NCBI RefSeq assembly: GCF_017874235.1
Contig: NZ_JAGGLC010000001.1
Coordinates: 186,001 to 250,000, forward strand
Origin: Halolamina salifodinae
GTDB taxonomy: Archaea > Halobacteriota > Halobacteria > Halobacteriales > Haloferacaceae
Length of the DNA: 64,000 nucleotides
Reading direction: 5' to 3'
Position 1 is the first letter of the stretch, and every line of letters starts with the position of its first letter. The position numbers were made by a program, and so were the translations under genes. This document shows, one piece after another, positions 18,816 through 55,542 of this stretch. The notes below the pieces were generated by a model. The model was not told the DNA's origin, ran no database searches, and was given only the letters and a program-made list of their open reading frames with translations.

Positions 18816-19967
18816 TCAGGGCGAGTACGGGGCGTGGCGCTCGACGGTCCGGTCGTAGCCGACCGCCTCGACGTCGAACGCCGGCCAGTTCGGCGTCGCC
18901 GTCAGGCATTCGAAGGGGTCCTCGCCGGTCTCGACGAGGTAGGTGTCCTCGCTGCGCGCGCCGCCGATGACGGGGTTGTACGCGTAACCCATCGGTGCCC
19001 GAACCGGGTCCTCGCCGTCGGGCGCGGCCAACCATTCCCGGCGGGCGAACCCCGCGGCGCCGCCCTGCTCGCCCTCTTGCCACGCATCCGGGAAGCCCAC
19101 TTCCTCGTAGGCGGCCTGTATGGCCTCGAACACGTCGCCGGCGTCGCCACCGGTCTCGACGGCCTCGTTGGTCGCCGCCAGCGCCGTCGCCTCGACCCGC
19201 GCCGCGGCGCGGAACTGCTCCTCGAAGCGCCCCGGCGGGTCGAACGCGACCGTCCGAGTGAGCGAGGCGTGGAGGCCGCGGCGCTCCGCGGTGACGCTCA
19301 CGACCGCGTAGTCGTCGAGGTCGCCGGCGCCGGCCGGAGGACTCCGGTAGGTCTCGGCGCGCTCACGGCCCGCGACCCGGACTGTCGGCGCCGACATCTC
19401 GCCCGAGGAGAGCGCGATGCGGAGCGCGGAAGCGACCTCGTGTTCGGTGTCCTCGGGGGTCAACTGCCGGCAGACGCGCTCCACGGCCGCCGCGGTCTCC
19501 TCGGCCAGCGAGCGGAACCGCTCCACGTCGCCGGCCGCGAGTGGCTGTCGGAGCGGCGCGGCGTCGATGCGGTCCAGCCCCGGCACGTCGAAGTCCGCCG
19601 CAGCGAGGGACGACGTCCCTCGGGCAACCGGGCTTTGCCCGGTGACGCCGGCGCCGATGGACTCCGTGGCGACGGCGTCCGCGAGCGAGTCGTGCCACGG
19701 GACCGTCTCGACCGCGAACGAGTCAGGTAGCTCTTCGGCAGCGAGTCGGTCGGCTTCGCCCGCGGGCGCGATGGCGCGGAACGCGGGCGCGTCGCCCGGG
19801 ACGTAACCCGCGGCGGCGACTCCCGTCCCGCCAGCCGCGGCGCCGACGGTGTTGTCCCCGCCGGTGAGCCACGCGAAGGCGTCGCGACTGGCGAACCAGA
19901 CGGCGTCGTAGCCCGTCGCCGCCAGATAGGCGTCGAGGCGCTCGGCGCGGGCGTCGATGTCGACCAT
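18816..19967 (-). CDS. M24-like protein lacking the metal ligands
   Basis: The protein is about 383 residues, starting at the ATG giving [20 protein letters not shown]. The N-terminal domain resembles the creatinase/prolidase N-terminal domain. The C-terminal domain aligns with M24 around [21 protein letters not shown], which corresponds to the 'VD...HSDMTRTF' metal-site strand of the active paralog at 1185-2354. Both Asp ligands are replaced (by Ser), and the usual GHGIG...HE and IEPG motifs are missing. It is therefore probably a non-peptidase. A two-hairpin DNA unit (19605-19646) is read in frame as part of the protein ([13 protein letters not shown]). It is divergent from heme A synthase. 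Confidence 0.75.
19605..19646. repeat. Two-hairpin unit inserted in a coding sequence
   Basis: GAGGGAC/GTCCCTC (19605-19611 with 19615-19621, loop GAC) is followed by GGGCA, then ACCGGGC/GCCCGGT (19627-19633 with 19637-19643, loop TTT), then GAC. The unit is 42 bp, a multiple of three, so the M24-like frame is kept. The linker CTCGGGCAACCG is identical to that between two hairpins of the element at 55.2 kb. Confidence 0.8.
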
Positions 19968-20073
19968 ACGGCCGCTGGCGGCGGCGGCGACTTCAACGCG
20001 CCGACTCGACCGCTCGCGCGCGAGCGCGCCTGTAACGGAATATCCAAGTGTGCGGGAGTCCGACATCCCGCGA

Positions 20074-55003: not shown

Positions 55004-55542
55004 GGCGTTGACGGCAGCAACAGCATCTCGTTCGTTGGCCACTTGCTGACCACAACCGCGCCGGCGGTGGCGCCTCCGTGCGCGTCATCAGAAATCGAAG
55101 ATTTCTGATTGGCAGACGAGAGCGAAGCTCTCGTCGACGACCCGAGCGCGAGGGTCCCGCGAGCGGGGCGGGACCGAAGGCTCCGCTGGCAGGGAGGAGC
55201 GAAGCCCCTCGGGCAACCGAAAGCCAGCGGCTTTCGGTGACAGCCGGCGGCGACGCCGCCGGCGACGAAGCGAGCTGGGACCACGAGGGAGTGATACGAG
55301 AGGCGCTCCGCGCCTCTCGGCATCGCCAGAAGGCAGCGCCTTCTGGCTAGCAGCCGAGAATCTCCGATTCTCGGCGACATGACGAGAGAGCTGTGCTCTC
55401 TCGAACCACTTGCTCCCTCGGAGGATGAAGGAGCGAAGCGACTGAATCGGCTGGGGAGGCTGTGGCCGCGGTGCGGGGTGGTGCGGCCACAAGTGTCCTT
55501 GGGAACTCCGCGGTGCTGTTCGCGGTAGCTGCTGTCAACGCC
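55004..55542. mobile_element. Hairpin-array element with imperfect terminal inverted repeats
   Basis: The 54956-55642 gap is non-coding. Ends 55004-55021 and 55542-55525 (minus) match at 16 of 18 positions (GGCGTTGAC-GCAGC-AC). Inside are eight perfect hairpins with 3-nt loops: 55087-55109 (loop GAA), 55115-55135 (GAA), 55216-55238 (AGC), 55243-55263 (GAC), 55297-55319 (TCC), 55325-55347 (AGC), 55353-55375 (TCC) and 55383-55403 (TGT). Weaker ones occur at 55153-55175, 55194-55210 and 55462-55490. Stems differ but the linkers NNGCA and GAC recur. The dispersed CCTCCCCAGCCGATTC motif is on the minus strand at 55459-55444. No transposase is present. I infer a non-autonomous element; mobility is not shown. 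Confidence 0.6.

Follow-up and report, generated by a model that had tools for sequence, protein, structure and literature searches.

Very small two-hairpin DNA elements, probably mobile, inserted in protein genes of haloarchaea

The two-hairpin motif at positions 19605-19646 of the window (the whole 64,000-nucleotide stretch of the Halolamina salifodinae genome that was analysed) is real, and it probably represents a family of minute, non-autonomous mobile elements in haloarchaeal DNA. Insertions, a target rule, covariation of the stems, recurrence across genes and genomes and one nested case were all observed. In the explanation that we favour, a core copy would read 5'-A(G/A)(C/G)-X-(N)(R)GCA-Y-GAC-3', where X and Y are hairpins with 7-bp stems and the whole spans 45 bp, and would enter haloarchaeal genomes in general at NNC^R sites, with a preference for GAC^R and without duplicating the target. 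Copies with a length that is a multiple of three probably survive in genes as hydrophilic in-frame inserts of about 15 residues, those of other lengths would persist in the apical loops of IS200/605-type end hairpins or intergenically, and a unit entering the GGC^A linker of another would generate X-X-Y-Y arrays like the one at 55 kb.

In the window the inserted element (AGC, X, GGGCA, Y and GAC; 45 bp) occupies 19602-19646 of the forward strand and lies antisense within a gene for an M24-family peptidase-like protein (18816-20066, reverse strand). Hairpins X (19605-19621) and Y (19627-19643), each with a 7-bp stem and a 3-nt loop, flank the linker GGGCA (19622-19626), and the terminal GAC (19644-19646) forms the 3' end of the element; the letters of 19605-19646 are GAGGGAC-GAC-GTCCCTC / GGGCA / ACCGGGC-TTT-GCCCGGT / GAC. 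This order had been picked out by an earlier reading of the DNA from its letters alone (the sequence-only reading) and is as claimed. The same reading took the unit to be 42 bp; the insert is 45 bp, with a triplet of the A(G/A)(C/G) type preceding those 42 bp. The host protein matches the Pfam families Creatinase_N and Peptidase_M24 at residues 40-134 (just under the Pfam cut-off) and 183-325, and the insert, corresponding approximately to residues 141-155, lies in the segment between the two domains. The comparison of M24-like orthologs that the reading had proposed was carried out: rather than being carried by all of them, the segment is simply absent from each of the 29 orthologs from the relatives compared, and the site is empty in six genomes of the same genus. 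A search of the M24-like protein against solved structures gave no match.

The element is repeated elsewhere in the same genome. A descriptor without fixed stem sequence (stems of at least 6, loop 3, NNGCA, GAC), applied to 400 kb of the genome sampled as 20 spread stretches of 20 kb, gave 8 matches, whereas neither ten dinucleotide-preserving shuffles nor the reversed sequence gave any; the enrichment over shuffled controls expected by the sequence-only reading is thus borne out. The eight matches have very different stems, joined by CGGCA, GGGCA, TTGCA, TGGCA or AGGCA. Using a second pattern, in which only the linkers and the outer stem bases are fixed, we identified 17 distinct copies in the window's genome and 0 in the reversed control. 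Nearly all of these copies are read through in frame within genes, and both orientations occur. When the joined flanks of all 17 copies were used as probes against six same-genus genomes, an X-Y-free site was found in a relative for every one of them. The insert at most sites consists of the A(G/A)(C/G)-type triplet and a 42- or 48-bp unit, amounting to 45 or 51 bp, and other sites hold larger nested forms, e.g. X-Y-Y or X-X-Y-Y. The record is not wholly clean, the net difference at L135 being 39 bp rather than 45. Three insertions are each common to one relative (L127/L228, L136/L217 and L137/L225). At the valS site, two relatives (G006 and G001; L226 and L227) hold different hairpin-bearing inserts with other linkers, which may be a second element type or much-changed copies.

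To define the junctions we used 101 distinct copies with perfect stems. A C precedes the element in all 101 and a purine follows it in 96, so that the target can be written as NNC^R; GAC is the commonest preceding triplet, and GGGCA is the most frequent linker (59 copies). Sites with GCC, GGC or AAC on the left still end with GAC on the right, and therefore GAC is part of the element, and the target is not generally duplicated. A 3-bp duplication would look the same as none where GAC stands on both sides (GAC^...GAC), so that only sites with another left triplet (GCC, GGC, AAC) exclude it. The gene merA provides a detailed record of a single site: at GTCGAC^GAC, eight filled alleles, six of them distinct, are longer by exactly 45 or 51 bp than 27 empty ones, whose flanks are highly similar. 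In the merA gene tree the filled alleles are scattered among the empty ones, a pattern that could have arisen by repeated insertion, precise loss or recombination. The merA gene of Natrinema zhouii (L052) has an apparent second insertion of other composition, approximately AELRSSGRSSGRSPREDNE, further downstream.

We infer transfer as a single strand from the following: C precedes the junction at both ends, the triplet favoured as target recurs at the 3' end, no general duplication is seen, and among the favoured sites are hairpin loops and linkers, single-stranded when folded. In this process the element would move as folded DNA, and an HUH-like or similar enzyme might read the folded hairpins and linkers, not the whole stem sequence, and join at C^R; the presence of GAC both in the favoured target and at the 3' end of the element would suit an HUH-like geometry. 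The perfect pairing of the stems may mean either that only foldable copies move or that the hairpins are re-templated. A more specific and only tentative proposal, which we would not put above a plausible guess, is an element whose identity resides in its fold and linker more than in its sequence: a single-stranded double hairpin of about 45 nt, handled by an enzyme other than IS200/605 TnpA and joined at C^R, that could have colonised haloarchaeal protein genes and given unrelated proteins, some of them essential, a similar hydrophilic peptide. Neither an autonomous element nor a mobilising gene turned up in our searches, and movement of a copy within a single species was not observed.

Many copies of non-multiple-of-three length lie, at GT(A/G)AAC^GGC, within the apical loop of end hairpins of the IS200/605 type; 16 distinct contexts have GT(A/G)AAC^ loops. 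Empty counterparts of this end hairpin adjoin Y1 TnpA genes in L250-L252, and a TnpB-like gene (named from its sequence) ends beside the filled hairpin in L041 and L055. Units in the loops may affect the end of the IS200/605 element or its guide RNA. Such residence would be expected if IS200/605 TnpA (Y1 HUH transposases) mobilised the units directly, as minimal PATE- or REPIN-like derivatives with X as the left-end and Y as the right-end hairpin. The lack of target duplication, the oriented target with its trinucleotide repeated at the 3' end of the element, and the two subterminal hairpins also agree with direct mobilisation by TnpA. Nevertheless, we consider it unlikely. The IS end hairpins (TCGCC-GTAAAC-GGCGA type, the sole end type compared) are unlike X and Y in sequence and have another end motif, and no autonomous X...gene...Y form was seen. 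Moreover, in the richest genus (g13) copy number shows no correlation with Y1_Tnp (PF01797; rho 0.02, n=35), and nine g13 genomes without a Y1_Tnp match have 2-27 copies, with a mean of 13.7. Y1 TnpA was accordingly rejected as the current driver, and the simplest single-strand transposase model is weakened because copy number is independent of Y1 TnpA. IS200/605-type end hairpins holding units were seen at L017, L027, L041, L055, L063, L070, L283-L297, L304, L307 and L318, and their own stems covary too.

The sequence-only reading had reported three recurrences of the motif near 55 kb. Two of them are exact, namely, 55087-55138 (ATCAGAAATC-GAA-GATTTCTGAT / TGGCA / GACGAGAGC-GAA-GCTCTCGTC / GAC) and 55325-55378 (linker TAGCA, GAC end). 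The third, an X-GGGCA-Y-GAC unit at 55194-55241, carries a single mismatch in the stem of X (GAGGAGC/GCCCCTC) and is for this reason missed by the perfect-stem scan. The 12-mer CTCGGGCAACCG is indeed common to 19619-19630 and 55208-55219. The array, all on the forward strand, further contains a decayed outer X hairpin followed by TGGCAGG and the next X (55168-55186; perfect in the homologous arrays L002-L004), a second Y hairpin, GCCGGCGGC-GAC-GCCGCCGGC with GAC, which is the outer partner of the nested unit (55243-55266), a hairpin with a 10-bp stem (55297-55319) and a last hairpin (55383-55403). One unit placed at GGC^A of another's linker yields X-TGGC-AGC-X-GGGCA-Y-GAC-A-Y-GAC, a form matched by 55168-55266, by its homologs in L002-L004 and by many Halorubrum loci. 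Nesting was seen directly at L117, where the window's genome has X-Y set into an older two-hairpin unit, in its linker, and G001 carries that older unit alone. Thus, the X-X-Y-Y arrays arise because units nest in each other's linkers, and the array at 55 kb is made of nested insertions. An inverted pair of 21-nt segments, 86% complementary (55004-55024 and 55522-55542), encloses this array, and related flanks surround the arrays in L002-L007, which suggests that a dispersed intergenic repeat of approximately 540 bp hosts the hairpins.

The arrays have long near-identical stretches in common, and haloarchaea readily recombine. Both facts would be accommodated if the units were immobile and spread between genomes by homologous recombination and gene conversion, with template-switch correction of quasi-palindromes remaking their stems in place. 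The orthologous copies L136/L217 show what such remaking could look like: the stem has changed on both sides, GGAC...GTCC versus GGAT...ATCC, and the loop is unchanged. We regard this scenario as improbable. Recombination requires flanking homology, whereas what is inserted is the element itself, in unrelated genes and flanks and with a strict C^R junction. In-place compensatory change was seen in the L136/L217 pair only, and most stem diversity may predate insertion.

Covariation was assessed on fifty distinct 42-nt copies collected with a search pattern in which the inner stem bases were not fixed. Standard pairs fill 99.1% of the stem cells, one inner position has all four Watson-Crick pairs (GC, AU, CG and UA), and the covariation score is 0.358, compared to 0.134 for shuffled and below 0.09 for slid partners. 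These counts uphold the proposal of the sequence-only reading that the copies form one family with conserved linkers and stems varying by compensation. Its statement that the stems change completely needs qualification: the linkers are kept, and stems do differ throughout in units like 55087-55138, but the main X-Y family has the outer bases GAG/CTC and CGG/CCG in common and varies in the inner pairs. We draw no conclusion from these outer bases because the search pattern fixed them. G.U pairs occupy only about 5 of 698 stem cells. Their near-absence in covarying stems points to stem perfection being kept at the DNA level. Strong covariation would also be expected of a regulatory or structural RNA with a conserved fold; yet for an RNA-level element the scarcity of G.U pairs, the occurrence of both orientations inside unrelated protein genes and the Rfam search of the 55-kb array, which returned sub-threshold chance matches only and no family above threshold, make a poor fit, and we deem it very improbable. 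Finally, the genome is GC-rich and short hairpins are many, but a chance origin from GC-rich coding sequence with coincidental linkers is refuted by the shuffled and reversed controls of the genome, which contain none, and by the empty sites in orthologs.

The probable mobile family is widespread. The pattern of linkers and outer stem bases has 846 matches in 130 of the 292 genomes of the class and 5 in the reversed control, 846 being somewhat more than the number of distinct copies because nested start points were counted separately in some genomes. Most matches belong to genus g13, with up to 44 per genome, and genome-specific stem types exist, e.g. GAGGTGGC in G158. When the exact first hairpin was scanned against a collection, the matches came overwhelmingly from named haloarchaea, many of them Halorubrum. 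Viral contigs searched with the pattern gave no match, and phages gave two weak half-length matches only. Host genes include merA, mutS, rpl2 (uL2), valS, gatE, leuC, serA and cofD; the names derive from translated sequence, and a family search backs M24 alone. Of the seven plasmid matches, six lie within genes whose product is named, including merA (twice), aconitate hydratase and cobN, and the remaining one lies in a hypothetical gene. Based on codon-position signal, the frame is continuous in 15 of 16 own copies and in 10 of 18 other copies of multiple-of-three length, compared to 0 of 16 copies of other lengths. The typical inserted peptide is S-E-G-R-S-P-S-G-N-R-T-Q-S-G-D, following an Asp codon, and it matched no solved structure. 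Ribosomal protein uL2 of Halomicrobium katesii and Halapricum hydrolyticum (L037, L073) apparently has an in-frame insert.

The sequence-only reading knew of no described family of this kind. Close known kinds do exist, the closest being the bacterial CGTC-tagged REPs, including Rickettsia RPEs, and SMR-A of Haloquadratum; on the other hand, we found no description of haloarchaeal in-frame palindromes or of the inserted peptide in the open-licence literature. CGTC-tagged REPs, including RPE-4 and RPE-6 of Rickettsia, are small bacterial palindromes with heterogeneous stems, some of them in frame in protein genes; no dedicated transposase was found for them, repeats inside other palindromes were reported, and haloarchaea are not mentioned (PMC3733652). 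Their stems measure 8-9 bp, the first two positions being A-T, and their loops 4-5 nt, and they mostly form head-to-head dimers (PMC3733652). The haloarchaeal element resembles them in its in-frame genic copies, in the tag, its reverse complement being (C/T)GTC-Y in 96 of 101 copies with the flanking base counted, and in the tail, as TGGCA-type linkers read TGCCA on the other strand, with a CCA end like the CCA tail. In contrast, its stems are mostly 7 bp (range 7-10) with G-C outer pairs and its loops 3 nt, loop and outer pairs being partly set by the search, and X and Y are unlike each other, in one orientation and separated by a fixed linker. SMR-A of the haloarchaeon Haloquadratum walsbyi, approximately 110 bp with prominent terminal inverted repeats, is transposase-free and its mode of mobilisation is unknown; it inserts without target duplication in near-terminal palindromes of IS605-type elements, and its reported targets are other mobile elements (PMC3119063). 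The units described here are likewise transposase-free, and 16 distinct copies sit in IS605-type palindromes without duplication; the description of SMR-A sets them apart, their core being 45-51 bp with no inverted terminal repeats and many copies residing in protein genes. Because neither the stem, loop and dimer features of CGTC REPs/RPEs nor the size and inverted ends of SMR-A are found, we assign the element to neither; it is apparently an undescribed archaeal counterpart of the bacterial gene-invading palindromes.

Other small elements are more distant. PATEs are haloarchaeal and transposase-free; they have palindromes near their termini and ends resembling those of IS605-type elements, lack inverted terminal repeats and do not duplicate the target (PMC3119063). 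The X-Y units have all these features except the ends, since they sit inside IS end hairpins and are unlike them (one end type compared). GTAG REPs and REPINs, short dispersed many-copy hairpins served by RAYT (Y1) transposases, also form arrays and are sometimes intragenic (PMC3733652, PMC3116915). The present units share the dispersal, the arrays and the intragenic copies, but their feet are AGC, NRGCA and GAC instead of the GTAG tag, and a RAYT association is not indicated, copy number being uncorrelated with PF01797. Features of MITEs are lacking: terminal inverted repeats are absent, and at many sites the triplet on the left is not the one on the right. Double-hairpin elements of fungal mitochondria consist of two adjacent GC-rich hairpins and are apparently mobile; they share the paired GC-rich hairpins and differ in being mitochondrial.

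If the units are mobile, selfish palindromes inside proteins, known from Rickettsia and other bacteria, would extend to archaea, where the record is clean, with strict junctions, numerous empty sites and, at one site in merA, presence scattered among absence. The movement of transposase-less palindromes of the REP/RPE type would become directly testable in genetically tractable haloarchaea. Odd 15-residue inserts in haloarchaeal proteins (uL2, MutS, ValS, MerA and others) would be explained, with consequences for annotation and structure modelling. Outside haloarchaea, Clostridia genomes (L018, L022, L038, L050, L051 and L082) contain a dispersed repeat whose likeness may be due to convergence, to kinship or to the search pattern having selected for it: it has the identical first hairpin, followed by GGGCA and a second hairpin.
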